Assembly (NCBI RefSeq): GCF_021134715.1
Contig: NC_060024.1
Coordinates: 6,324,001 to 6,388,000, forward strand
DNA: 64,000 nucleotides
Direction: 5' to 3'
Source of the DNA: Daphnia pulex
Lineage: Eukaryota > Arthropoda > Branchiopoda > Diplostraca > Daphniidae
In this document: in pieces, positions 2,686-40,354 of the stretch
How positions within the stretch are numbered: position 1 is the first letter of the stretch
Layout: each line of letters starts with the position of its first letter
The notes under the pieces: generated by a model
Told to the model about the DNA's origin: nothing
What the model saw: the letters and a program-made list of their open reading frames with translations, nothing else
The model's database searches: none
Translations under genes and position numbers: made by a program

Positions 2686-4154
2686 TTAAAATTTGATTAT
2701 CAAATCTACTATAATCACCGAATGGTTGCGCAAAGAAAGAACACGGAACGACTTCGGATCGACGCAATATGATTTTGGTGACGGGGACCAAAAGAAGCGA
2801 TCAGATCCATAAACGTAGTCCAAACCAGTCAAATCGGCAGTAAAGTTCTCTTCATTTAAACTTTTTATTTCAAGCCCGACAACGTCCGAGGTCAATTCTA
2901 ATTTGCATTTTTGAGGTTTGCCGCACGCCTCCCACATGCACTTTAGCCTTGTGGGCAATCCTCCAGCATTCATTAGCTGACCAAAAAAAAAAACAGTTAA
3001 GCAAAACAAATGCAATTGATATTAAAAACATATTTAAAACCTCTCTGTAGCCCACGTATCCTCCTACGCCCAAAATAACGTTGACAGTTTTGTCCGTATG
3101 CTGCGCTTCTCTGAAAATGGCTTTCAAATGATTTCCGTGACGTTCTCTTCCTACATAATCTCTTAATTCCGTTTGTAATAACTTGAGTTTCATAGGACCA
3201 CAATGCACCTAAAAAATGAGTGATTCAATGTGAAAACGCATAGCTCAGTTGATTATGAGGAACAGGGTCCTTTTGACAATTTCACTCACATTCACTTCGA
3301 GAATGAAATCTTGGCGACTACCTGCATCTTCAGGAAGACTTATGGTGAAGTGGGAGTCATAAGAGACGGTTTCGTTAAGAATTACTACAACTCTTGATCA
3401 AATAAATAAATCCAAAAAGACAGAAATTAGCGAAATAATAAAACTGCCAGCCACTTCAATTGCATCCAAATTACCTTAGCTTTTCGGGTGCTATGAACTT
3501 GAACTTTGGAAAAGCTTTTTTAAGAAGATGTAATAGATCTTCATCAATGTCTTTAACGAATACAATGTCGGGATTTTGCAGGAGCAACATCCCACTGAAA
3601 AACGCGCATCCACTGACCAAACGTCCCCAGTCTAAAACGCGCAAATTTTTGGGAGCTGGGTTTGATGAAACTTTGACGGTACAGCCACCCACGTAGATAC
3701 GTTGTACCGGGATATTATTACTAAAATGAATGTCCAAGTAAAACTTAAATTTTTAAAAGTTGAATTTGCTGTATTGTAACCCACCGTTTTATCTGCTGGT
3801 CTTGAGCATTCAGTAACTTTTCACTGAGATGAATGATGTATTGAACATATTTGTTGTTCGGTAAGGTCAAAACGTCTGTGATTTTGACGGCCTCGCGTCG
3901 ACACACGGGACACTTCAAAGTGTTTCCTGAATGGAGAGCCTAAAGAGTTCACAGTTTTCGAATTTTGAAAATAACAATCATGTTATGTACAAATGCATGT
4001 TGATGGCTGATTTTACCTTGAGACAGGTGAAACAAAATGTGTGTGAGCAAGGCAGCACTTTAGGTCGCATCAGCTGGAGATCATATTTATGGAAGCAAAT
4101 GCTGCAACACAGGAATTCATCCTCATTCAACTCGCCACCACCAGAATCTGCCAT
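2686..4154 (-). CDS. RING-finger protein, array copy 2 (layout B)
   Basis: Six exons join in frame with GT-AG sites: 4154-4017, 3939-3785, 3720-3475, 3392-3290, 3208-3041 and 2976-2686, giving 366 residues. The C3HC4 RING has C17, C20, C36, H38, C41, C44, C56 and C59, followed by a short amphipathic helix. The third exon holds NPDIVFVKDIDEDLLHLL, the equivalent of the NPDVVF segment of the layout A genes. The C-terminal exon has WEACGKP and SDRFF motifs. The 35-residue exon 3 of layout A is absent, and exon phases otherwise match exactly. E3 ubiquitin ligase activity is inferred from the RING alone; the other domains are unrecognised. It lies between tRNA-Ala units in the array. Confidence 0.8.
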
Positions 4155-23056: not shown

Positions 23057-26000
23057 ATGCACAAGAGGATCAGACGGCCACCAGTGACGGTGTTGTCGTC
23101 CACCCGGACAGAGTCGACCTGCATCTTTCATCGACGCTATCGGCTCAACGTCAGACGGAAACTCTTGCGGACCATCGTGCTGGGCAGTGACGACAATCCT
23201 ACTCACCTGAGAGACAACGAAATGGCTGCCCGTCTAGAAGAGGCCCTGCTGGACCCGCTCCCGCGTCCGCACACCGACGTGGCAAGGATCTGGTTGCGCT
23301 ACTCTTTCCACGTTGCCGATTACTTCCAGTCGGATCGCCTGGCCGCCATCCAGCCGTCGCTGCTGGAACGTGTCAGCGAAGGCGGCCGGCTGCTGATCCT
23401 GCCCCGATGCCGGACCCTGTGGGAGGATTGCCTCGAGTCCGACATCCGCAAAAGTTACAACCGCTACGTCAAAACGGCGGCGCTGGATTTCATTTTGAGC
23501 GACGGCAGTTCACTCAGTTGGACCTGCAAACGGGATCAGCCGATCCTGATGGCCAGGAGCTGTCCACGTCAAACCGATCGCCACAAGCCCATGCTGACCG
23601 TCCAGCGCTCCCTCGGCCGGAAGCTTTGCATCCATCACTTTTACGGCCGGAAATTCGTCGCCCTGTGGTACAAATTCATCAGGTCAGTTTTTTAAATTTT
23701 TTAAATTTCCCGCCAAAAAAATTTGAATGACAATTTGCATTTGGCGGTTGAATTAACACAGACCGATGCAGTGGCAAAAGTGCAGTCGACTGCGTAAGGA
23801 TCACTGGGAAATTGGCGAATTGAAAATCAGCTGGGAAAAGGAATTGGCGACGGCCGAACAACTTTTGGTCGACGGTTGGCAGACGATTGTCAAGAGCGTC
23901 GTCAAATACGTAACAAAATTTCATTTGATTTTCTATTCTAAACAATTATTATTATTATTATTTTAATGCCATAGGCGCTGAGGAAGAAATTGGCTCTTCC
24001 GTCCGACGGCAACGTCCAGCTGATTTGCCGGACGCTGGACACTCTCATCGGCTTATTACTTCAAGAATGGCGCCAGGAGAACATGACCAACTTCGGGTTG
24101 TGGCTAAACAATCGCCAAGATGTCAAAGTATTTCATTCATTAATTGTTTTCATTAACTTAAAATCATTTTGATTCATTTTTAGAATCAATTGGTGTTTGT
24201 GATTCACGTGTCGATGAACGACGGCCAACTCAAATTCGATCCGCCCGTCCAGGAAATCAGTTTAGCCTGGGGACAATTTTGCGACCTCCTCTCAGTGGCC
24301 GCTTACCGGTCACTCCAGTCTAGTCGCCTGGTCTTTGAAACGATTAGGAAACAAATGAATCAGAGCGATCCTGCCCAGCAATCAGAACCCATTCATTCAA
24401 TTAAAGTCTGTCATCTCAAATCGTATGGATTAATTGAATTGTTTTTATTTGAAATTGAAATTTGTACAAATTCAGGTGAAAACTCCGGCGGAATTTCTGG
24501 ATCACATCCGCCGGGTCATTGCGGACGCATTCGCCGACGACAACGTCATGTTGACTACAGCCCTGGAAAAATTCCTGGTCTTTTCTTCCTTCTTAAAAGA
24601 AGATTCGGTAATTGAATCATCTCTAATTGAATTGAATGAAACAATTTAAAAAAGAATTTTAATTATAGGAGGAGCTGGAAAATTTGGATCAAGAAGGTGT
24701 TGATTTCGACCTGCTCCAGGAAAGAGTCCAGCACTACCGCCAGGTGCTCAAGCGGATCGAAACGGACCTGCCCTGCACTCTGCCCGTCGGCCGGCGCTAC
24801 CTGGTCCAGATGGGCGGACTCAGGTCGTCCCTCAAGAACAAAATCGCCTCCATCATCGATCGACTGTTGGTCCGGTTCAGCAAGAATTTCACCTTATCGG
24901 CCACCAGGTATCAAATTTTAAATCAAATTTAATTTAATTAAATCTATAAAATTTGGGTGTCAAAAGTATCTGCCAAGATTACGCGGAATACGCCGACATG
25001 GCCCTGACTGTTCCGCAAACGACGGCCCAGTGGATCCACCAGCGGGACCAGGTGTGGACTTTAGTGGATTCGACCCTGCCGGAAGCGGATGAGAAAATCC
25101 TCAAGATCCTGCGCTGTTACCTGTTCATGTGCGACGAGATGAAGGTCAGCGAGAGCCACTCGGCCCTGGCCCGTGAGGTCATCATGTGGAAGAGGCGGAT
25201 GAACGCCTCCGAGGTCGAGCACGGCCGTCTGCTCAAGCGCAAACGGACCGAACTGGAAGAGGCTCTCAAGGTTTATTGTGATTGAATTAATAATTTGATA
25301 ATTCCATCCGGAATGTGAATAACATTTTTTGATGAAATTTGAAATAGAGTAAGCGCGGGAAAGTGGCCCAGAACGTGACAGTCTACACCAGCATCATGGA
25401 CAGCTTCCAGAAGATGGGCGAACTGGAATCACTGGGCCAGTACGTCGTCCAGGCCCGGTCGCTTCTCTTCCGCCTAGAAGAGGCCATCACCAACGTCAAA
25501 GGAATCAACGAGGAGGAAGTCTATTTCGAATGGGAAGTCACCGAGTACCCCACTCTTGCCAAGGTCAGTTTGACATTAATTTTAATTGATTTCAAATTAA
25601 TGTTAATTCATTTAAAGTAAAATTTTATTCATTCAAGTAAAATTTTATAATTTTGAAATTGATTCAAATTTAATCTAAAATAAATTTTAATTGATTTAAA
25701 TTAATTTTGATTACATTAAATTTTTTTATATGATCAGGTCCGGGAGCGTTTGAGTCCGTTTTTGAATTTCTTCGAGATGTCGTCGTCGTTTCTGACGCAG
25801 CAACAAAATTGGCTGGACAGCCGGCTGGGCTCCTTCAATCCGGACACGATCGTCAAGGAAACGGAGAATTTTGCCCAGAGCCTGTCGACGGTGGAGGAGC
25901 AGCTGCCGGACGTGTCGGACGTCCGCCATCTGTTGAGCCAAGTGGAGACCAAGTTGAGGGACTTTAATAAGGTCCTGCCGCTCATCCGCACGCTGGGCAA

Positions 26001-29000
26001 TCCGGCGCTGAGGGAGCGCCACTGGGAGCAGATCTGGGACACGGTCGGCGTCCGGCTCAGCTCCGAGGCGGCCACTTCGCTCCAGCAGCTGCTGGCCCTG
26101 CAGCTCAACGAGCATCTCAAGAAGATCGAAGTCATCAGCAATTCGGCAACGCAGGAAATGGCCCTGGAAAATTCTTTACTCCGCATGAAGAACTTGTGGG
26201 TCCAGGTCGTCCTTCCGGTGGAAAATTATCGGTAACTTTAATTCGATTTAATTTTTTGCATATTGATTTAATTTAATTATTTTTATGTTTGTAGAGTGGG
26301 AGAGGGTAAAGTGCTGGGCAAAGTGGACAGCATCCAGCTGTTGGTCGAGGATCACATGATGGAGACTCAGATCATGCGGCGATCGCCTTACGTCAAACCC
26401 TTTGAAAAAGACGCCAAGTATCATTTTTATTTTATTATTTAAGTTTTATGCAAATGAATTAAAATTAATTAATTAATGAATTAGGGAGTGGGAGCAGCAA
26501 TTGAACGATTTGCAAGTGTTGCTGGAACAGTGCGTCTTCATCCAGGAGCGCTGGTGCAGTCTGGAACCGTTGCTGACGTCACCCGACGTCCTCAGCATCG
26601 CCCCGGAAGAGGCCCGTAAATTCAGCGCCATCGACAAGGTTAAATCATTTAATTTTAATTCTAATTCTAATTCACTTATTCGAATTATTATGGGCAGAAT
26701 TGGAGGGATGTGCTCGGACTGATTAGCCAATGCAAACAAGTTTTTTCGCTTCTCTACGCCGAGCGGATGAACGAGCGTCTCATCGTCTGCATCCAGCAGG
26801 TACCGTTTCATTTTCAATTCTTTTTATTTAATTCTATTTAATTTAAATTCAAATGAATTGAGCAGATCCAGCTATTGGAGAAGAACTTGCAGAATTTGAT
26901 GGAGAACAAACGTTTGCAATACCCGCGCTTCTTCCTGCTGGCCGAGGATGAGCTGAAGCGGCTGCTGTCCTTGTCGCGTGACCCGCACCGGTTCGCCACT
27001 TGCCTCTGGCGACTCTACGAAGGCGTCCACAATTTGGAATTCACGGCCGAAAATGACGTCACTCACGTCGTTTCCGCCACCGGCGAGCGGCTACCCCTCA
27101 AGGAGCCCGTCAGCTACGCCAAATGCAAAGGCCAGCTGGACAAATTTCTCAATCATCTTGAGTCCGTCCTCAAACAAACTCTCAATCAGGTAATTAATTT
27201 CCCTATTTTTTAATTCAATAACAATTTACATAAAATTTGCATAAAATTTCAATAGAATTTGCATAGAATTTACATAAAATTTGCATAACATTTACATAAA
27301 ATTTGCATAACATTTACATAAAATTTGCATAAAATTTACATAAAATTTGCATATAATTTGCATAAAATTTACATGAAACTTGCATAAAATTATTACAAGA
27401 ATTTACATAAAATTTACATAAAATTTTACGTGTCTAGGTGATTACGGATACCCTGAAGGATTTCGACGGAACCGATTTGAATGTTTTGCTATCTGCTCCG
27501 TCGCAAATCGCCATCTTGTCCGTCCAGGTTTATTGCACGGGCACCATCGACACGGCCTTTGAATCGGGCCGGCTGCTGCAGGACGACGTGGCCGGCAAAC
27601 TGGACTCGTTCCTCAGCGGAGTGCAGAAGAAATTGGCGGCTTCTTCGGACACTGTTCACCGGTTGACGGCCGAGTCCGTCACCCTGATGGCCCTCTACTA
27701 CCGGGACCTGCTCCGCGATTTGACGTCGACCGAAGACCAGGCGGCGGCCGTTCTGGCCTGGGAGGCCTCGCTGAAATTCCGCTGGACCGACAACCGCGTC
27801 CAGATTCACGTCCTGGACATGGCCCTGGAGTACGGCATGGAGTACATCGGCCTGCCGCCCAGGATGGTGGCCTACGCCGACGCCAAACGGACGGCCATGA
27901 TCGTCACCAACGCCCTCAGTCACCACCTGGCCGGCATTTTGATTGGCGAGCCGCGCAACGAGCTCCTGGAAAGTCTTTCCCACTGTCTCGGCCAGCGTCT
28001 GGTCCGTTTCGACTGCTCCGAGCGGGTCGGGCCGGCCGACATCCTGCGCCAGATCCGCGGGGCCACCACCTGCGGCATTTGGCTCTGCTATCACCGCCTG
28101 GACGTCCTGGGCAAGTCCACCATTTCCTTCATGACCTCGCTCCTGGTCCAGCTGCAGAACATGGCCTCCACCACACCTCCCTGGCTGGAATTAACCGAGG
28201 CCGGCCTGCCTCAGTACGGAATATTTTGCCTGACGGAATCGTCCAGCTACCATCAACAATATTTCGACGCCAATCTCAAACGGACCACCAATCTTTCACT
28301 GCCCGAAGTGGACGCCCTGGCCCAGATTCTCTTTCCAGGACCCTGGGCGGCCGTTGTTGGCTTCCTGGACCACTGCCGGAAGCCGGAAGATAAAGACGAA
28401 CAGCAATCGTCGGCCATTGGCATTCTCAAACAGATTTTCGCCACTTCCAGGAGGTCCAGTTTGAGCGCCGCCCTGGACTCGTGGCAATCGGCCAGGCTGC
28501 CGGCCGATCAGGCGGCCGATCGGACCAGGAAATTGACTCAAATGATCCCGGGCGACAAGTTGGTGACCACCGAGTGGACTCAAGACCCAGTGGTGCTGGC
28601 CTGCCCGTCTGCCTGTCAGAAATTGAAACTGCACGTCAGCGATCAGATCAAATGGAAATTGTGTCACCTCTCGCAAGCGTTCCAGCACGCCCGTCTGCCC
28701 ATCTTGCTCTACGGCCTCCGGCTGAGTGGCAAAAGTTCTTTGCTGCAGATCCTGGTCGAGTGCCAGCGGCTGGCCAAGCCTCAAAGGCCCATTGTCCAGG
28801 AGAGGATCTGCATCGGAGCCTACGCCGAGGAAGATCTCATGAGCAACATGTCCACTTCCATCATCCCCCAGCTGGTCCAGCGCAGCGGTGGGCCGGACAA
28901 AGGCGAACTGATGATTGTCCTTAACGGGCCCTGGATCACGGCCGTCCAGGACGTCCTCCTGGAAGCTTTGTCGACCGAGGGACGAGGCATTCTCATTCTG

Positions 29001-32000
29001 CCCAGCACGGAGCAGATGACCCTGCCGGACCACGTCCATTGGGTCTTTGAGATGAACAGCATCGAGCACGTTTCGCCCGGCCATGTGGCCCAGTGTCGAT
29101 TGATTCCGCTGGACGGGCAGAACCATTTGACTTGGAAATGTGTCGTCCAGTCCTGGATGGCCACTCTGCCGCCCGTCCTCCTCTTCCTGGACCCACTTTT
29201 GAATTTGATTTTGCCGTCCGTCCTGGAATACGTCGACTCGTCGGTCGATCATCGGGTCCGGACGGCCAGCGGCTTCCACCCCATCAAGGCCGTCAAGCAT
29301 CTCCTGTCGCTCATCCGCTGCTTGACGGACCCCAGCACCGAGGCCCTGGCCAAGAAACAGGCCGTTTTGGACCCGGAAATGAGGGCCCAGCTCCAGGGGA
29401 CCGTCCTCTTTTCCATGTTGTGGACGCTGGCCGTTCCGGCCTACATGGACAGCAAGTCGGCCTTCCACGAGTTTTTCGTCCAGCAAATGGATTTGGCCGT
29501 CCAGAACGGCCATCTCTTCCCGTCGGCCAAGCCGCCGGCCGAAGGGTCCGTCTTTGATTTTAAATTGATGGTCCAGTGGGGCCACGAGATGGGCAAATAC
29601 AACGGGCCGTTGTGGCAGCCGTGGGGCGAAGAGTTGCGCTCCTTGCCGTCGCTGTCCAGGGAAATTCCCGTCAACGAACTGTTCATCGCCACGGCCGATT
29701 CACTCCGCTCCCATCACCTGATGTCGCTCTTCATCCAGTGCGGAATTCCTTGCGTCATCGTCGGCCCACGCTCCTCCGGCAAGACGGCCACCGCCCGTCA
29801 CTACCTGCGCACTAGGCTCAACCGGGCGACGCATCAAGTGATTATCGTCAACACTTCGAAATCGATGGACGCCAAAACGGCTCAGAAAATTCTGATGGGC
29901 CAAATGGAGCGCCGCCGCAAGTCCGTTTACGGTCCAACGGTAACTTTATTTTATTCATTTTGTCTTTTTTAATTCATTTAAAATGTGAATGAATTCATTT
30001 GGTTTGGGTGAATATAGATGGGCAAGAAGGCCGTCATTTTCTTCGATGATGTGCAGACGGAAACTTTGAATTCCAGGGTGGCTAACCGGGTCGATATGCT
30101 TCTCAAGCAGTGCATTCAACACGGGCAGGTGAGATTGAATTTTATTTAATTGGATTTATTTGTAAGGTTTTATTGATTTTGTGTCGGGGATGTAGCTCAG
30201 ATGGTAGAGCGCTCGCTTAGCATGCGAGAAGTACGGGGATCGATACCCTGCATCTCCAAAATTATTGCCTTTTTGGGATATCCAGAGCATTTAGATTACC
30301 TTTTGGAAGGTGTCATAAAACTTAAACTTTAAATCAAATTTCTATTTGGACGTTTTGACAATTTAAGATTATTGATAGATCGTATATTCACGTAATTTGA
30401 ACTACATTTTATAGGGACAATTTTTGACTTTTTATAGATTTTATGATTATTTTTGCACTCTCAGCATTTTGAATAATTCTTTAAATAACTGATAGAGTTA
30501 CAGGGGATGTAGCTCAGATGGTAGAGCGCTCGCTTAGCATGCGAGAAGTACGGGGATCGATACCCTGCATCTCCATATTGATTTTTTCCTAATTAAGTTC
30601 ATTGAATTTTAGTCATTTTTCAAAAACTCAATATTGTCATGGCCGCAATTTTAATGTTTGTTGTAAATTTTTACGGAATTTTTATGTAGTTATTCTGATT
30701 CCCTTGTCTACGGTGCTTCGCGCCTTCGCCTAATTGAGTTCGTGTGGCTGAAGCGGCAAGAACCGGATTTATTTGGTCAACTGATTTTTCTGGGTCATTT
30801 TAGAAATCCCGTTTTAAGAATTTTTAGCCATCGGGTTAAAAATAGTGAAAGAGACTTGTTCATATTATCAGGGGATGTAGCTCAGATGGTAGAGCGCTCG
30901 CTTAGCATGCGAGAAGTACGGGGATCGATACCCTGCATCTCCAATTCCTTTTTTTCAATTTCTTCTAATCACAATTACATTAAAATCTTAAAAATTTCAA
31001 TCGTATCGCTATCCAAAAAAGTGTAATCGTTTTACAAATAGTTATCGCAGTTTTGAATGGTGTTTTCCATTATTTCCTTGAGTGCGCTCGAGTGTCACTC
31101 AATTAAGTTAAAATCAAGGTTTATTAAGTCATATTTATTTAAATCTATAAAATAGTCATTAGCCCTTCCGCACGTGCAATCAAGTTTAAAGTATAGCCAG
31201 TTTAAGCCAGTTGAAAGTATAGCCATGAGCCAATTCCGATATTAGAAAAACGATAAAAAAAGAAGAGATTCTTGTCAGTTATCAAGGACTAGACATCACG
31301 TCAATGTCCAGCTGATAGACGCGGGCATCTTAAAAAAAAAGCGTTGCAACTTAATTGAATACCAGCCAAATGCCTCGAGCGATAAACGGTTGGACGCAAG
31401 GGGTCCGCAACTCAAATTTACTACAATAAAAAAGGTAAAAAAGCAAAAAAAAGTGAAAAAAGGAAAAAAAAAGGAAATTTACTTTACGTGCTAAAAGAAG
31501 GGCGCGCGCGAACGAACCCCCCCTCCTCCCCATCCCCTCCCTACCCTTTTATTTTCGCTTGAAGGAAAGCCTATCTCAAAAGTAAAAAAGGAAAAATAAA
31601 GCAAGGAAAAAGTAAAAAAAATAAAAAGTAAATTTGAGTTGCGGACCCCTTGGTTGGACGCGGCTGTAATCTCTCTGCATGGATGAATTTTAAAATGCTG
31701 AATAATGTTTTAGCCTAGAGCAATTCAAGTTGTGATTGTTTATGTAACGTCGATAAGTTTTAGTCCGTCTGGAACCTTATCTGAACATATTTTGTTTTGA
31801 ATTTGAATTTCCAGTTATCATTTTTTGTTTCGTATTCGTTTCATCAAAATTTTACACGAATGAAACTTGATAGGACTTTGAATTAAATTAAATTACAATT
31901 GACATTAATTCGTATTATTCAAATTCATTTCAAAATTTAAGGTATTTGACGGCCTGGAAGGCGGTCCGTCGAATCTGATTGACATCAACTTTGTGGCGAC

Positions 32001-35000
32001 ATCTCGCGTCTGGGCCGACCAACTATCCGACGCTTCCGTAGCGGAAGAAGAACCGGAAGACGGAAGTGACGTACACCAACGGCTACCGGATGAGGTGCTG
32101 CAAACATTCGCTGCCATCGTGTCCGAGCCGCCCACCCTGGACACAGCCTCGACCATCCTCTACCGGATGCTCATGTGGCACCTGGACGCCCGCGGGTTCG
32201 CCAAAGAATTCGACGCCGTCATCGACCAGATGATCAGCGCCTCTATGGGCATTTATCGGCACCTGACGGGCTGCCCGGTCATGGCCGCCTATCCGGCCCG
32301 TTCCGGCTGCCGCTGGAACCTGCGCGACCTGATGCGCTTCACCCACGGTCTGCTGCTCTCCGTTCCGGAATCGATCGAAGACGTCGGTGCCATGAAGCGC
32401 CTCTGGCTGCACGAGGCCTGTCGGGTCTACTCGGACCGGCTGACGCTCCTGGAACCCGTGGCCCTGGTCACCCGCTACGTGGAGCAATCGTGCGAAACGT
32501 ATTTCCAGGCCACCGTGTCCGACCTGTTCGCCCAGATGGACATGGTGGAACTGGCCGACCTGGCCGACATGAACATCTACACGATTTTCTTCTGCGACTT
32601 CTCCGATCCCAAATCCGAGTCCAGGAGCTACGTCGAAGTCATGGACATGGAGCACTTGACCAGGGTCGTCAACGGTTACGTCACCGAGTACAACAACATG
32701 AACAAGCGGCCCATGCACTACGTCAACGTCTTCCGCCACCTGATGCGCACCATGGCCAAAGCGTCCAGGGTCCTCAAACAGCCCAGTGGCCATTTGATCC
32801 TGGTCGGAGCCAAGGGCGTCGGTCGGCACACCCTGGCCAGACTGGCCGGCCACGCTTCCGACTCGACCGTCCACCAGTACGAGTCCAGCTGCGCCAGTGG
32901 TGAGAACGGGCCGACCAAAGGAGGTGCCTGGAACCTTGGCGACTGGACGGACGCCCTGAAAGCGGCCCTCATCGACTCGGCCGACGACGACAAGAAATGC
33001 GTTTTCATCTGCTCGGACGTCGAGTTCCAGCGGCCGGAATGTCGCTCCTTGGTCAACCACATCGTCTCCCACGGCGACCTCATGTACCTGTTCGACGCCA
33101 AGGAGCGCAACGAACTGGTGGAACAAATGAGGGCCATCGACCTCCAGAAGGAGAAAACTCTTCAGGTAAATTGTTCTGCACCTCATTTGCATACATGAAT
33201 TTATAATTGATGAAATTAATTAATTGAAGAAATTAATTAAAACTAATTAAATTAATTAAAATAAATTGAAATAATAATTTTTCAATATATAGACGGACGG
33301 GAGTCCAGCAGCGCTGAAATCCATGTTTGAAACGCGGATGTGGGAGCAGATCAGGATCGTGATTATTTTGTCGTGCGAGCAGTACACGGAAATGGTCATG
33401 GATGAATGTCCGCAAGTGGCTTCCGCCTGTCAAACCGTTTGGATCTACGTAAGTTTTATTTTTTAATCCGCCGGAATTGATTATAAATTATTAAATTGGA
33501 AATTGATATTAGCCATGGCCGTCGGATGCTGTTGCCGATGTGGCGTCCGGATGCTTCAAAGATATCGAGCTGGACGCCGAGCAGAAATCCTGGCTGATGG
33601 TCGTCATCAAATTGATCCACGAGTCGACGGAAGGCGGACACCACCGGCCGTGTCCCAGCGATCCGCAATGCCAGCGCTACGGGCTCCTGATGGATTTTCT
33701 CCACGTGGCCGTCCGCTTGACCAGGAATTTCAAACAGGAATTCAAATGCCGACAGGAGCTGTGCTGCCAGGCCGTCGAGAAACTGGAACTGGCCGCCCGG
33801 CGGGTCGCCGATATGGAGGCCGTCGCCCAGCAGTGGAAAGACGCCCTGGCCGGCCTCAAATCCTCCACGGATGAATCCTCGCCGTCGGATGGAAATGGAG
33901 AGAAAGTAGTGCGGACGGAACGGGACGTCGAGCAGATTTCGTGTCAAATCGACCGGGCCAGAGATTTGCTGGCCAGTTTGGACGTTTACCAGCGAGTGTG
34001 GCAGAAGCAGGTGGTCAGTCTGGAGGATCGCATCCGCTGTTGCCAGGCCGATTGCAGTTTGACGGCCGCCGCTTTGGTCTACGGGGCTGAACTGAAAGAA
34101 TCCCAACGGATCGACATGTTCCGCAGCTGGATCGAGCAATGCCGGGCCCTGAGTCCGTCGGATCAGGCCGGCAGCATCATCACCATTCCGGCCGATCCTG
34201 ACGATTACTTGACGCTGCTGGAATCGGAAGTCCGGGAAGTGGAAGCGGCCTGGATCATGGCCAACCTGTCGCGAGACGACCACTGCATCCGCAGCGGAGT
34301 TGCCATGCGTCACATCCAGCGGGTGCCGCTCCTGATCGATCCTCACAACATTGCCGAGCGCTGGATCGACGCCCTCAACGCTACTAAAGAGAACCGGCCC
34401 ACTTACCTGCACATGTCGGCGCCGGATTACCTGGAACCGCTATCCGGCGCCCTTCAGCTGGGCACGGTGGTGGTGATCGACATCACCCAGACGGAACTCG
34501 ATCCGGCCATCATCCCGCTCATTTTGAAGCAGACCTTCAGTCAAGGATCGACTAATTACATCAAACTGGGCTCGGACGTTGTCGAGTACGCGGCCGAGTT
34601 CCAGCTGTACCTGCGGACGCAGACGTCGCTGGAAGACGTCGACCTGCAGCTGCGACTGTGCGTGACGGTGGTCGACTTGACGCTGGAGCAGCCGGGCATC
34701 AACGACACGCTGGTGTCGGCCCTGGTCAACAGCGAGCGGCCCGACACGGAGGAGAAGATCCAGCTGTGCAAGCAAATGTCGGAGATCCGCTGCCAGCTGG
34801 ACGAGACGGAGCAGAGTCTGCTCAACATTTTGTCGCAGAGTGAGCACGACTGGATCGAGAACGACGCCGTCATCACCTCACTCCTGCCGGCCATCACCCA
34901 GTCGAAATTGCTCAAGGAGAAGCTGGACGTCGTCCTGCAGACCCGCGAGCGGATGGAAACCCAGCGACAGAGCTTCGCACCCACCGCCGTCCTGGCCGTC

Positions 35001-38000
35001 CAGATTTTGTCGGCCCTCTGGCGGATGGAGGATCTCTTCCGGCGACTCCGCTTCCCCCTGGCCTGCTTCTCCGACGCTGTCGTCGCCTGCCTGGAGGACG
35101 GCGAAGGCGACCAGGCCGATGATTTCGATTCCAACACCAGCACCGGACGCAAATTGGCCGCTCGTCTCTTCACCCGCAAATTGAAATCCGGGCTGGATCG
35201 AGTCCAGCGGCTTTTGGCTTCGCTGCTTCTGGCCTTTTGCGTGGCCAGGAGCGAGAAACTCTGCCGGTCGACGTTCGTCAACCATCTGGCGACTGGGCGG
35301 CTGGATCAGACCAATACGGCGCATCACAGGGATGACGCCATGGACGATTCGCTCGTCACTCCCGATCCGGAATGGGACGAATGGGTGGCTGAGGTCCTGC
35401 TGGAGGAGAACCGTTGGCGCTTTGCTGCCGGAGTGGAGACGATGGCCCAGAAATTCTTGAAAATCGGCCAGAAAGTCGAATTCAACGATTACGTCACGTC
35501 GATCGCCGACGTTAGCAGTGTCACGCCCTTGTTGATGTTTGTCGAGCCGGGTGTCGATCTCCTGGCCATCATCTCCAGACTCTGCCGGGAATTCGATTTC
35601 CCCGAAGACCGGGTCCGTTTCGCCGCCGTGGCCGGACTGGACAGTTTGAACTGGGTCGAAGTGGAGGATTGCGTCCGTCGAGGCAACTGGCTGGTGCTTC
35701 AGGGATTCGCTCATCTTCGATCCATGATTAACAACGTCCGGGTGCTCCTGGAACACCTGGCCGCCGATAATATTTCGGCGGAATTCAAACTGTTCATTTT
35801 GTGGGAGGCTTTCGATGAGGAAGACGAAAGCGATGGAGTCGGATCGGTGGCAAGTCGACGACGGGCTCGGCTACCGCGACTTCTCATGGAAAATTGCCGG
35901 ACAGTTTACATCGAGCACGTCCACACCTTCGAGGACTGCTTTCAGGTTGGTCGGATTTTTCTCTTACGATAATAATTAGAGAAACAATTTATAAAAGAAG
36001 TTTGTTACTGTAGTGTATATATCGGTTAGTTTTACATAACAAAGTACGGCTTGTTAGCTCAGTTGGTTAGAGCGCCGTGCTAATAACGCGGAGGTCATGA
36101 GTTCGATCCTCTTACGAGCCAAACTTTTTTCAATTATATGCGACTTTATACTTAACAACGGTTTTGGTTAACAATCTCATGTAAATTTTGTTAGCGGAAT
36201 TATTCGTTTTGAGCTGTTGTAATTAAACTTTTAAAGGTTCGCATAGATTATTGTTTTCATTTGAAATTTTAAAAGAGAGACAGTTTTACTGTTTTTATAC
36301 AACATTCAATTATTTTATGCCAAGGAGCCCGTACAATCTTACATATAATTATATAATCCAATCTAGAAGTAGAGTATTTTAGAAAGCCATTAGAAAGAAT
36401 TGGCATTATATGTTGCCGAACCCCATCATCGTAGAATTAGCCTATCAAAAAAGGTTTCGGCAAAAGGTCTCATTCTTTTCCAGAACAGGCCACACCCCAC
36501 ATGCTTTCTCCCATCCTGTTCCATCCCCTATGAGCTCCCCCCTCCACCCCTACTCCTATCAGTCCCTCGCTTTCCAAATAACGGCATTCAATGCAACGCC
36601 ACTTTTTTTATACATCGATGCGAATTGCAGACTAATTAAATAATGAAATCAATTTTCATTATATGAACTTTAATTTCTTTGATTGCTGCTTGCATTTGAA
36701 TTGATTTCCGTTCGCATAAATTTACAATCCGCTAAGATACAGCGATTCGAATGCGGTGGGTTTAGCCATCGAGCTTCTTGTTTTGGGAAGATTTAAGAAG
36801 GAGACGAAAACCAGCAATAAGCATACTTACCTGGCTCAGAGGCAACCATGATCACTAAGGTGGTTCCTCCAGGGTGAGGCCCTTCCATTGCACTACGGTC
36901 GGGCTGACCCTTGCGATTAACCCAAATGCGGTTAACTCGGGAGTACAATTTTTGGTAGTGGGGGACTGCGTTCGCGCCGTTCCCTGATTAATTAAAATAA
37001 TATTAAAATGATCATGGGTGGAAATGAAGAAAAAAGTTATCTTTTAAATTTGCTAGTTTTCTTTAAAAACTATATTTCGTGTAATTCAACTAAATTATGA
37101 ATTTAATATTATTATGTACGTATTTCGCCATTCCCACTATACATATTCAGTTGTGCGAGACCTTATTTGCGAACGCCGAAAACTCAACAGGATGAAAGTT
37201 TCAATAAACCCATCACGTTTTCTTTATTTGAAATCCTTTAATGGAGCGCTAGGATCGTGACTCACGCTGGGAAATGTGCCTTTTTAAAAAAACCTTTTGT
37301 CTTTCGCAAACTTCGAGCTCCTTGTTTACCAGCTCTCCCCGCTGAGGAACATCCATTTGCGGAAGGACTGTGTGTGTCAATATTGATTAATACTCATCGT
37401 CATCTACACGGGCTGCGGCTGCCTCTTTGTGTTTGCCAAGACCCTGAACGGCACACAGAGTTTCATGGATGACGTGATCGGCTAAAGGGATATCAGGAAT
37501 CGTACCGTGAGACTCTCATCTTGATGTATTTAAATTAAAGAGATAGCAAACTTAACGACTGTCGCCGTTAAACAAAGTTGAGAGAGTACAAGTGTACACT
37601 GGTAAATATTTCTTGTGTTTGTAGCTGTTCGCTTTCGCCATCTGACGAGTAACGAAACAAAAAACAATTAACTCCTATAACAATTCCAAAGAAAAATACT
37701 AATTGAAACAGGGAATAATGATTGCTGATCCTCCTTCGCTGCTGTAACACTAAGTTAAATATGCTTGGTTCAAACTCAATTCAACATTGAAACACTAAAT
37801 AGAAATATAGAATTTTAAAGCGCTCCGAATACAACCCAAGCGGAGGTAAATGACACCTTGAAAAGCGTTGGATTTTTTTACATCAGATTTCATCGAAAGA
37901 TTGCCGTTTTGACATGCAAATTGCCACCACTCGAGGCTGGACAATTAAAGACCGTTAAAAGCTGGGCTTGACCCAAGCATTGATGCGCGTATACAAGAAA

Positions 38001-40354
38001 CCTCACGTACTTGAATGACCCTTAAAAATATTGCCATTTTCTGGGGGGCTATTTCCATTTGCCAATTAATTTGCGTTGATAAAAATAGATTTATGAAAAA
38101 TAGTAGTATGTACCGCCGGTGGCTGTTTTATGAGATTGCTATCTTTTCAGTTAACTGATGACTATATAGCAATAAAAAATTGGGGGTTGGCCTGGGTTTG
38201 GCCAAGTTTGTTGCAAGCGCCGTTTTGTTGCGGGCAATGAATTCCCCCCCCATCAATTTGAATATTCATGAAGGTTTGATACGTTACATGTCTTTGGGAA
38301 AGCTGGTGGTGCCAGTAACGGAGCAATACACTATACACGGGAAAACCCGGGCTGTGTTCATTTCAACAACGGTGATTGCGTGCTACCCTGTGCTACCCGA
38401 TTGCATCCACGTGGGCTATTAAATGGCCTTTTTTCCAACTATGTGGTTCTTCTGACTTACTACGCGGTAATACATTCCCCGTTCCCCCATATAAAGCCCG
38501 AAATAGAAAAAAACATTAAAACAAATTTATAGCCATTTTCATCCGCATTCCGCCTCGGGTTATTTGTGAGCTGGACGAATTGTTGAATTCAGTAAATGCC
38601 CTTTGAAAATTTCACGCCAAATTCCATTTCACTTCAATGATTTTTCATCTTTAAATTTTCTTGTCAACGCAATTCTAATTTTTTTTCTTTTCATAGGATA
38701 TAGCAAATTATGTTATTAGTTATTACACCCTTAATGGGTATTTCAATATGCATTCTTACAGATTTGCTACAATGAGTGGATGAGTTTTTAGCGCCATTTA
38801 TCTAAATGTTATCACGCTGGAGCTCGGTCCCGATGTGATTAACTTTATTTTTCGTTCGGGCAATTGGGTGTCTGAAAATCGAACGATAAAACTGAAATGG
38901 AGTCGAAGAAGATGTTTTCTTGTATTGAGTAGATGTGTTACTTAATCTTTGATAGGAGAACTGTATTTGATTATTATCATGTCCGATTTTGAAACGGATT
39001 CTCGAAAGAAAATTATTGCAGATTCCAACAAAATATTTCAGATAATTTGTTACATTTCGCCACCGTACTTTCAGCTTAACAAATATTAAAATAGCTGTGG
39101 AATCACGATTATATTTAAGGTAAATCTTAATGATGGCTAAATCTCTATAGATGTAGGCTTAAATGTGTTTGGTTGAATCATCTTCATACTGTGGATTATG
39201 AAGTTCAAGTATTCAAGTCATAGAATCAGCCAGTTGCAATTATGGAGTTCTAGTCATATTCAAGATTAATTTTTGAAAACAGGGGATTGTGTTCGTACAA
39301 TTCCCGACGCAATAGTTAATTAAATTATGATATAAGAGAAAGTATAAAGTATAATGATAAATATGAAATTGGTAAAGTATTCGAAGTCAATAGACATCAA
39401 TTTTATTTGCTATGTCTTTGTCAACGGCCATACCACGTAGAATTCACCCGGTCTCGTCAGCTCCCGGAAGTTAAGCTACGTCGGGTCCCGTTAGTACTTG
39501 GATGGGTGACCGCTTGGGAATACGGGATGCTGTTGGCATTAAACTTTTTCTTTTTTTACCAAAATTTTTTGTGGTAAAATTTCCCTAAAATATTCTAACG
39601 CTAAACTGTTAGTGTCATTTAATTTATCTTTTCGATTCTACAAAAAAACACATTTTAATTCATATTCTTGCTCTTTTCAATGCACTTAAATCGCTTAATT
39701 ATTATGCGACATGAAATTTCAATGAATTGTTTTATGGTCTTAAATTTCATGAATTTCTTCCCCACATGACAGGAATTCATCCGATCGGCGGAATTCGACC
39801 GGCTGATGAATGATCCGCTGAGAGCGTGTGCCAGCTACCCGTTGAAAGTGAAAACTGCCGCTCTCTTACTGATCCTGCGCTTGATCGTCTGGGATCGTTG
39901 GGGCTGTCTGATACCGCTGGTTGAACTGTGGCAGACGGCCAAACAGATCGCCACTCTGACATCCGTCAAGAATCACGACTGGGCCGCCACTTTCCACCGC
40001 GTGACCATCGGCAACCTGGAGGAATACGTCCCTTCCGCATGCCGTCAAGAATTTGTCTGCCGCTTCCTGCCGGACTTGGTGAGCGGCTCCCGGACCGGCT
40101 ACAAAAAGGCGTTCGACCAGTTGATGGACACCTGGTCCTCCAATCTGACCCTGCCGTCGGCCGATTTCCAGTTCATTTACGACTGTCTGGGTGATCCAGT
40201 CAACGAGACTCGACGGCAGACGCTCCTGTCGCAGCGTCTCTGGAGCCAATTGGTCCGTGGATTTGGCGGTCAATCGTTGCCCATGGAATCCATCGACGTC
40301 ACAATGACCGAAGACGACGAAGAAGAAGCGCTAATGGACGCCAAAGATCACTGA
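23057..40354 (+). CDS. Divergent axonemal-type dynein heavy chain lacking stalk and AAA1 site
   Basis: Exons after the first: 23762-23909, 23975-24127, 24184-24405, 24476-24607, 24669-24907, 24967-25270, 25348-25563, 25738-26231, 26295-26417, 26485-26638, 26698-26799, 26866-27189, 27438-29939, 30018-30128, 31942-33165, 33293-33448, 33513-35945 and 39773-40354. All join in frame. The first exon ends at 23682; its start is uncertain (first in-frame ATG 23057), and N-terminal exons may be missing. The model gives about 3,414 residues. The linker is recognisable (VYFEWEVTEYP; YPRFFLLAEDEL). In AAA1, EYGMEYIGLPPRM matches the family, but the P-loop position reads IGEPRNELL and the Walker B position reads LCYHRLD. 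AAA2 (GLRLSGKS, 28713) and AAA3 (GPRSSGKT, 29763; Walker B FFDD) keep P-loops. AAA4 has GAKGVGRHT. AAA5 has ELDPAIIPLILKQTF. Only about 75 residues separate the stalk entry and exit. The protein ends soon after AAA6. Confidence 0.85.
27225..27427. repeat. AT-rich 12-bp tandem repeat in a dynein intron
   Basis: About 16 degenerate units of the type CATAAAATTTGC / CATAAAATTTAC fill most of the intron between 27189 and 27438. Confidence 0.85.
30186..30258 (+). tRNA. tRNA-Ala-AGC: tRNA-Ala (AGC), first intronic copy
   Basis: Intact 73-nt gene on the same strand as the dynein gene, in the intron 30129-31941. It is identical to the array copies. About 35 bp of its 3' flank (CTTTTTGGGATATCCAGAGC) resembles the 3' flank of the copy at 2134, so flank and gene were copied together. 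Confidence 0.95.
30503..30575 (+). tRNA. tRNA-Ala-AGC: tRNA-Ala (AGC), second intronic copy
   Basis: Intact and identical to the first intronic copy, 317 bp downstream of it. A T-rich Pol III stop (TTTTTT) follows within about 15 bases. Confidence 0.95.
30871..30943 (+). tRNA. tRNA-Ala-AGC: tRNA-Ala (AGC), third intronic copy
   Basis: Intact and identical to the other copies, 368 bp downstream of the second. A run of seven T follows, a likely Pol III terminator. Confidence 0.95.
31398..31651. mobile_element. 254-bp non-autonomous inverted-repeat element (MITE)
   Basis: Perfect 25-bp terminal inverted repeats lie at 31398-31422 (starting AAGGGGTCCGCAACTC) and 31627-31651. They are flanked by perfect 10-bp direct repeats GGTTGGACGC at 31388-31397 and 31652-31661. 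The interior is A-rich with a short GC-rich stretch and no coding frame. A 9-10-bp target duplication fits Mutator-like elements best, but the superfamily is an inference. Confidence 0.9.
31662..31941. other. Rest of the tRNA-bearing dynein intron
   Basis: AT-rich sequence up to the acceptor at 31940-31941; nothing further seen. Confidence 0.5.
36048..36121 (+). tRNA. tRNA-Ile-AAT: tRNA-Ile (AAT)
   Basis: A 74-nt cloverleaf. The acceptor GGCTTGT pairs with ACGAGCC (one G-U pair), the D-arm is TAGCTCAGTTGGTTAG, the anticodon loop is CTAATAA with anticodon AAT, the T-arm contains GTTCGATC, and the discriminator is A. It has no intron. It lies in the last dynein intron, same strand, with TTTTTT following. 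Confidence 0.95.
36823..36986 (+). ncRNA. U1: U1 spliceosomal snRNA
   Basis: The 164-nt sequence starts ATACTTACCTG, the canonical 5' end that pairs with 5' splice sites. Loop I has ATCACTAAGG (U1-70K site region), loop II has ATTGCACTACGG (U1A-type loop), the Sm site is AATTTTTGG near 36948-36956, and the final hairpin is GGGGGACTGCGTTCGCGCC. All expected parts are in order, so it looks functional. It lies in the last dynein intron on the same strand and would have its own snRNA promoter. Confidence 0.95.
36987..39419. other. Middle of the last dynein intron, no gene seen
   Basis: AT-rich intron sequence between U1 and 5S. Only short open frames without coding character are present. Confidence 0.5.
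39420..39539 (+). rRNA. 5S rRNA: 5S ribosomal RNA
   Basis: About 120 nt from GTCAACGGCCATACCACG to GGGATGCTGTTGGCA. It contains GAAGTTAAGC and the internal control region with TTAGTACTTGGATGGGTGACC. The ends pair to form helix I. Pol III T-runs follow at 39546 and beyond. It is a lone copy in the last dynein intron, not a tandem array. One position in the CCCGGAAGTT segment may carry an extra base compared with the usual CCGAAGTT. Confidence 0.93.

Follow-up and report, generated by a model that had tools for sequence, protein, structure and literature searches.

A DNAH7-type dynein heavy chain gene of Daphnia pulex predicted to lack the stalk, the microtubule-binding domain and a working AAA1 site

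A gene in the 64-kb stretch of Daphnia pulex DNA analysed here (the window) encodes a dynein heavy chain that, as read from its sequence, has lost the stalk and the microtubule-binding domain within a single open exon and whose AAA1 ATPase site is destroyed. It would be missing ATP use at AAA1 as well as the grip on the microtubule, the two halves of the motor cycle; having neither an AAA1 site nor a stalk, the protein would fail as a motor on two defining points. The deletion of stalk and microtubule-binding domain within a single uninterrupted exon had been claimed in an earlier note on this DNA, and both parts of that claim hold. The loss of the AAA1 Walker A and Walker B motifs and of a recognisable AAA6 lid goes beyond it.

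Gene model and the shortened stalk

Dynamic programming yielded a gene model of 3402 residues in 20 exons, which extends over 23057-40354. Its start codon at 23057 is a guess, its 13-residue exon at 37333-37371 is weak, and the protein may alternatively end at the stop after 35969. AAA1 to AAA5 are recognised, and the large part of AAA6 is weak. The features, all on the plus strand, are as follows.

23057..27189 (+), exons 1-13: tail and N-terminal linker (gene model; aligned to DNAH7 from its residue 149)
in exon 25738-26231 (+): DHC_N2, E 6.6e-33
27438..29939 (+), exon 14: linker end, AAA1, AAA2 and AAA3 start (AAA_6, Dynein_AAA_lid, AAA_7; DNAH7 best match)
27942..27965 (+): AAA1 Walker A position, IGEPRNEL (alignment to DNAH7)
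28074..28109 (+): AAA1 Walker B position, GIWLCYHRLDVL (DNAH7: GAWACFDEFNRI; alignment to DNAH7)
28713..28736 (+): AAA2 P-loop GLRLSGKS, kept (alignment)
29763..29786 (+): AAA3 P-loop GPRSSGKT, kept (alignment)
30018..30128 (+), exon 15: likely AAA3 Walker B, FFDDV, at 30039-30053 (gene model; motif by eye)
31942..33165 (+), exon 16: AAA3 lid and AAA4, with GAKGVGRH at 32806-32829 (AAA_8 65 bits; DNAH7 188 bits against DNAH3 134)
33293..33448 (+), exon 17: AAA4 continued (gene model)
33513..35945 (+), exon 18: AAA4 end, shortened stalk, AAA5, buttress and AAA6 start (translation, Pfam, phmmer)
33663..34082 (+): putative mini-stalk, a helix-loop-helix in place of coiled coil and microtubule-binding domain (AlphaFold2 model and sequence)
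33663-33866 (+): first helix of the mini-stalk (AlphaFold2 prediction)
33867-33893 (+): polar loop of the mini-stalk, TDESSPSDG, 9 residues (sequence)
33894-34082 (+): second helix of the mini-stalk (AlphaFold2 prediction)
34248..34883 (+): AAA5 (AAA_9), E 1.3e-43, 149 bits; block pLDDT 64-86 at residues 241-390
35517..35801 (+): AAA6 large part (Dynein_heavy D6), weak, 27.7 bits, under the Pfam cut-off of 30.5; z 10.4 against the DNAH12-type protein
39773..40354 (+): possible last exon of some 194 amino acids with an acidic end, membership uncertain; GC3 0.71, similar to that of the other exons

The possible last exon was unlike the AAA6-lid regions of three paralogues in all three comparisons and gave no Pfam match. 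Three tRNA-Ala(AGC) genes at 30186-30943 lie within the dynein intron 30129-31941; a tRNA-Ile is found at 36048-36121, and three further tRNA-Ala genes are located in the left part of the window.

Exon 18 leads from AAA4 to AAA5 in a single frame, with 811 residues and no stop. The motif KLELAARR, at the entry to the stalk, starts at 33780, and RARDLL, at its exit, at 33954, so that the start-to-start distance is 58 residues; the earlier note was right about their closeness, and its figure of about 75 residues has to be corrected. Measured between slightly longer matched motifs of the coiled coil, the spacing is 62 residues in this gene as against 278, 276, 271, 250, 333 and 284 in its six paralogues from this genome, whose models were made mechanically with a simple splice predictor, so that single values may be off by one exon. 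A DNAH7 of the PDB has 285 residues there, counted by eye on the alignment. Comparison via phmmer assigned residues 2-103 of the exon, which cover the last part of AAA4 and the first helix of the coiled coil, to DNAH7 2504-2607, with a weak score of only 3.4 bits when taken alone, and residues 99-534, with the second helix and AAA5, to DNAH7 2832-3249 with 151 bits. The weak segment is contained in one continuous match of the full model (residues 68-2488) to DNAH7 149-2607, which reaches 811 bits. Since this match continues to residue 2607 and similarity resumes at 2832, some 225 residues belonging to the stalk and the microtubule-binding domain appear to be absent, and microtubule binding in the usual way would not be expected, as had been proposed before. 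AlphaFold2 predicts that a short helical hairpin replaces the stalk, with block pLDDT values of 60-80 at residues 81-160 and below 60 toward the outer ends of both helices. Alignment to dynein heavy chains and structure prediction, both suggested in the earlier note, are in line with it.

The Pfam family MT (PF12777) gave no match to exon 18 at E values up to 1; AAA_9 scored 149 bits in the same exon. Searched against the whole genome, the PF12777 profile revealed eight matches, none of them in the window. Of the six other dynein genes it caught five and failed with the one of DYNC2H1 type, so that its absence from the window is not proof by itself. A tblastn search of the window with the stalks of six paralogues uncovered no convincing stalk, the single match having an E value of 0.97 over 26 residues. 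As controls, AAA5 segments of the paralogues matched exon 18 for five of six queries (E 9.6e-32 to 3.0e-14), and when the stalk queries were run against one another's loci, 24 of the 30 pairs gave matches with E no higher than 1, from weak ones to a best value of around 2e-29.

These searches bear on the explanation that the deletion is an artefact, with the stalk insert missing from the assembly or residing in an unrecognised exon. The gene is known from one assembly only, which would leave room for such an error, but we consider it very improbable: the junction is in frame, the linker between the helices fails to align with DNAH7, the window contains not a single N, no convincing stalk-like sequence turned up in it although most AAA5 controls were clear, and the loss of the stalk is one among several losses in this gene.

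Motor parts, class of the gene and the dynein set of the genome

At the Walker A motif of AAA1, IGEPRNEL stands opposite AGTGKTET of the DNAH7 sequence GPAGTGKTET, lacking the lysine and the threonine, and at Walker B, CYHRLD stands opposite CFDEFN. Four paralogues (C10, C9, C7 and C8b) carry GPAGTGKT and CFDEFN. The sensor stretch MNPGYAGR is absent from the DNAH7-type gene as well, and its AAA4 reads GAKGVGRH as compared with GVGGSGRQ in DNAH7, while the P-loops of AAA2 and AAA3 survive. In a genome profile search the AAA6 lid (PF18198) gave no match in the gene, the nine matches covering all six other dynein genes. The C-terminal domain (PF18199) was not found in it either, its ten matches across the genome falling into four of the other six genes; as this profile also misses the DYNC2H1-type and DNAH3-type genes, the absence of the C-terminal domain is less certain. 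The ring is probably without an AAA6 lid and may thus be incomplete as a scaffold too, which counts against the structural reading given below. The predicted protein was described earlier as intact-looking, with well-kept flanking AAA4 and AAA5; the first label suits its reading frame, and the second suits AAA5 (149 bits), AAA4 being weaker (65 bits).

When the full model was compared with the PDB, the best 60 of 84 matches included DNAH7 with 965 and 948 bits, a chain behaving as DNAH3 with 718 and DNAH12 with 705. DNAH7 came first both with the full protein and with all three exons tested singly, the AAA4 exon by itself scoring 188 bits as against 134 for DNAH3, and separate DNAH3-type and DNAH12-type genes exist in the same genome. 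By these best-match scores, the gene can be classified as a DNAH7-type heavy chain, which belongs to the single-headed inner-arm dyneins of the IAD-3 group. It is collinear with DNAH7 (Drosophila Dhc36C) from the tail through the AAA6 region and differs from it by the missing stalk and microtubule-binding domain, the dead AAA1, the undetectable AAA6 lid and the C-terminal domain that was not found. The affiliation with DNHD1 suggested in the earlier note is not supported in view of this collinearity and of a score about 250 bits above the DNAH3 and DNAH12 classes among the best 60 of 84 matches. DNHD1 is likewise an unusual dynein-related heavy chain, with 4753 residues in human according to excerpts of PMC9916431; none was among those best 60 of 84 PDB matches, and in view of the preference for DNAH7 we regard it as unlikely.

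The genome searched comprises 133,188,837 bases in 13 contigs. The classes of its six other dynein genes, each judged on one segment against the PDB, are as follows.

C7: DYNC1H1 type
C1: DYNC2H1 type
C10: DNAH5/8 type (outer-arm)
C9: DNAH9/17 type (outer-arm)
C8:10.70M: DNAH12 type
C8:13.75M (C8:13.74-13.76M): DNAH3 type

Judging from these assignments, the dynein set seems to comprise a cytoplasmic pair, an outer-arm pair and three heavy chains of the inner arms. The genome profile search revealed no separate DNAH1, DNAH2, DNAH6 or DNAH10 gene among the AAA_6 and AAA_9 loci listed, which are lower bounds for such large families. In aligned stretches the DNAH7-type gene shares only about 19-26% identity with the six others. 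A gene for a light chain of the DNALI1 family was also found.

The DNAH3-type gene (C8:13739001-13759000) has kept its stalk, with 284 residues between the motifs, and its Walker A; at Walker B it has FDDID, the mechanical model lacks MNPGYAGR, and there is no match to the C-terminal domain. Perhaps it is a second partly degenerate inner-arm dynein. An eighth AAA1 locus at C8:6.745M (within C8:6726001-6752000) duplicates part of the DNAH9/17-type gene on C9, with five pieces 94.7-97.4% identical and an AAA1 part at 57-59%, where alignments may cross introns. At C12:4173082-4173444 on the minus strand, a stretch with weak similarity to the dynein stalk family (26.3 bits) contains one internal TAG and no AAA_6 or AAA_9 match accompanies it; this is probably another coiled coil.

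Signs of selection and of decay

The three largest exons (2502, 1224 and 2433 bases, together more than 2000 codons) contain no stop. Upon shuffling they showed 25.4, 12.5 and 27.0 stops on average and never reached zero in 500 tries each, and 1000 shuffles of exon 18 gave a mean of 27.3 and a minimum of 12; of random point changes in the model, 3.9% create a stop. Only the long exons count in this respect, because the predictor forbids stops and the openness of the whole model is no evidence. GC3 amounts to 0.76 in this gene of very long exons, whose introns have a GC content of 28%, and to 0.44-0.58 in the six other dynein genes; three actin exons displayed 0.75, 0.67 and 0.71, although in two of these stretches a stop occurs close to the edge. 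A freely drifting gene would be expected to shift toward the AT-rich introns. So high a GC3 is unusual, and does not prove selection. A search for related loci in collections of genome contigs and of viral contigs confirmed none.

Decay is a serious alternative, if the less probable one in our judgement: after the loss of sperm flagella, the inner arms would have come under relaxed selection, and the gene would be a pseudogene to come whose frame is still open. It would fit with the absence of flagellated sperm in Daphnia, as given in excerpts of PMC2582488, with the low identity to the six other dyneins and with a D6 domain beneath the Pfam cut-off. The altered AAA1 of the DNAH3-type gene and its lack of a match to the C-terminal domain point the same way, and such a partly degenerate second gene fits a general decay of inner arms, which counts against the reading that we prefer below. 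What speaks against decay is that the three largest exons have stayed open despite deep divergence, that the model continues through 35945 for 3196 codons, though stop-free by construction, that third positions of the exons have 76% G+C as compared with 28% in the introns, and that the gap left by the stalk is closed in frame, with a polar loop between predicted helices.

The composition also bears on a new job outside the cilium, for example as a cytoplasmic scaffold using tail and ring. In favour of it are the loss of the motor functions and a GC3 that differs from that of the other dyneins and resembles that of the actin exons. Linker and tail, however, remain collinear with DNAH7, and the gene of a partner from the DNALI1 family is still present, so that we hold this explanation to be improbable.

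A possible non-motor role and known systems

Among these explanations we lean toward a kept structural part rather than a slowly dying gene. We give about even weight to the view that this DNAH7-type inner-arm heavy chain has turned non-motor and has been retained in 9+0 sensory cilia, where it would serve structure or set the gain. Somewhat more tentatively, it may be a natural pseudo-dynein, an inner-arm chain that selection maintains after the loss of ATPase site and stalk because it gives the sensory cilium structure or acts in it as a brake, and does nothing else. Tail, linker and AAA2-AAA5 are still recognisable, while the AAA1 Walker motifs and the stalk are lost and the AAA6 lid and, on weaker grounds, the C-terminal domain are undetectable. 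Such a chain would neither hydrolyse ATP at AAA1 nor grip the neighbouring doublet, and would produce no power stroke. With less certainty, its tail might still dock with some light chain at an inner-arm position of the doublet, which would be the reason why the gene is kept, and the place might be 9+0 sensory cilia of the chordotonal type. There its role could be that of a passive spacer, or of a component that sets the gain, beside active outer arms and the DNAH12-type arm, where any nucleotide at AAA3 would only set the shape of the ring.

In Drosophila, chordotonal neurons are described as having outer arms together with DNAH7, DNAH3, DNAH12 and DNAH6, without the two-headed I1/f (excerpts of PMC6367277), and the dynein set of our genome resembles this one. 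Loss of DNAH3 in the fly leads to excess amplification (excerpts of PMC4660584), which suggests that a single-headed arm can restrain rather than drive. By analogy, the chordotonal-like set, the DNALI1-family gene and the restraining fly DNAH3 would make a DNAH7 spacer or gain-setter plausible, though unproved. For Daphnia itself, excerpted sources report that flagellated sperm are absent and that 9+0 sensory cilia remain in its group (PMC2582488), that the motility machinery is partly lost (PMC10425847) and that tektin-1 is the only tektin kept (PMC6357514). A fragment of radial-spoke protein 3 was also found in the genome and is at odds with a pure 9+0 picture.

The gene bears on the question of whether single-headed inner-arm dyneins act beyond force generation. 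A heavy chain with tail, linker and most of the ring, and with neither AAA1 hydrolysis nor the reach to the next microtubule, would separate a structural from a motor role. Further, the dynein set, which seems to be small and mixed, belongs to an animal that has no flagellated sperm, and this makes steps of motor loss visible within one genome. Searches of a literature collection listed no report of this gene, and dynein heavy chains had not been classified in a 2009 survey of arthropod motors that included Daphnia, as far as excerpts of PMC2674883 tell.

The result also bears on the published claim, made in excerpts of a 2025 paper (PMC11949491), that DNAH12, of the same inner-arm group, is a dynein lacking the microtubule-binding domain. 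Two DNAH12 chains of 3960 residues from the PDB (8j07_g1 and 9fqr_PW), however, can be aligned to the DNAH12-type gene across its stalk and its microtubule-binding region, in the two stretches 2272-2665 and 2697-2929, and the reported lack may trace to the entry Q6ZR08-1 used in that paper; in the DNAH7-type gene of D. pulex, by contrast, the loss is in the genome itself. A dynein motor domain without the microtubule-binding domain can fold and crystallise, as indicated by the title of PDB entry 3vkg ("MTBD truncation mutant of dynein motor domain"). That construct is engineered, whereas the change in D. pulex is natural and AAA1 is lost too.

Two further PDB chains carry names that misfit their behaviour in our comparisons: 9fqr_Xx ("putative malate dehydrogenase 1B") behaves as a DNAH3-type dynein and 9fqr_I3 ("Cilia and flagella associated protein 57") as one of DNAH5/8 type. 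In the mitochondrial contig (15,333 bases), translations of the first 10,000 bases, read by eye, revealed nad2-cox1-cox2-atp6-cox3-nad3, followed on the opposite strand by nad5, nad4 and nad4L, which is the arthropod gene order.
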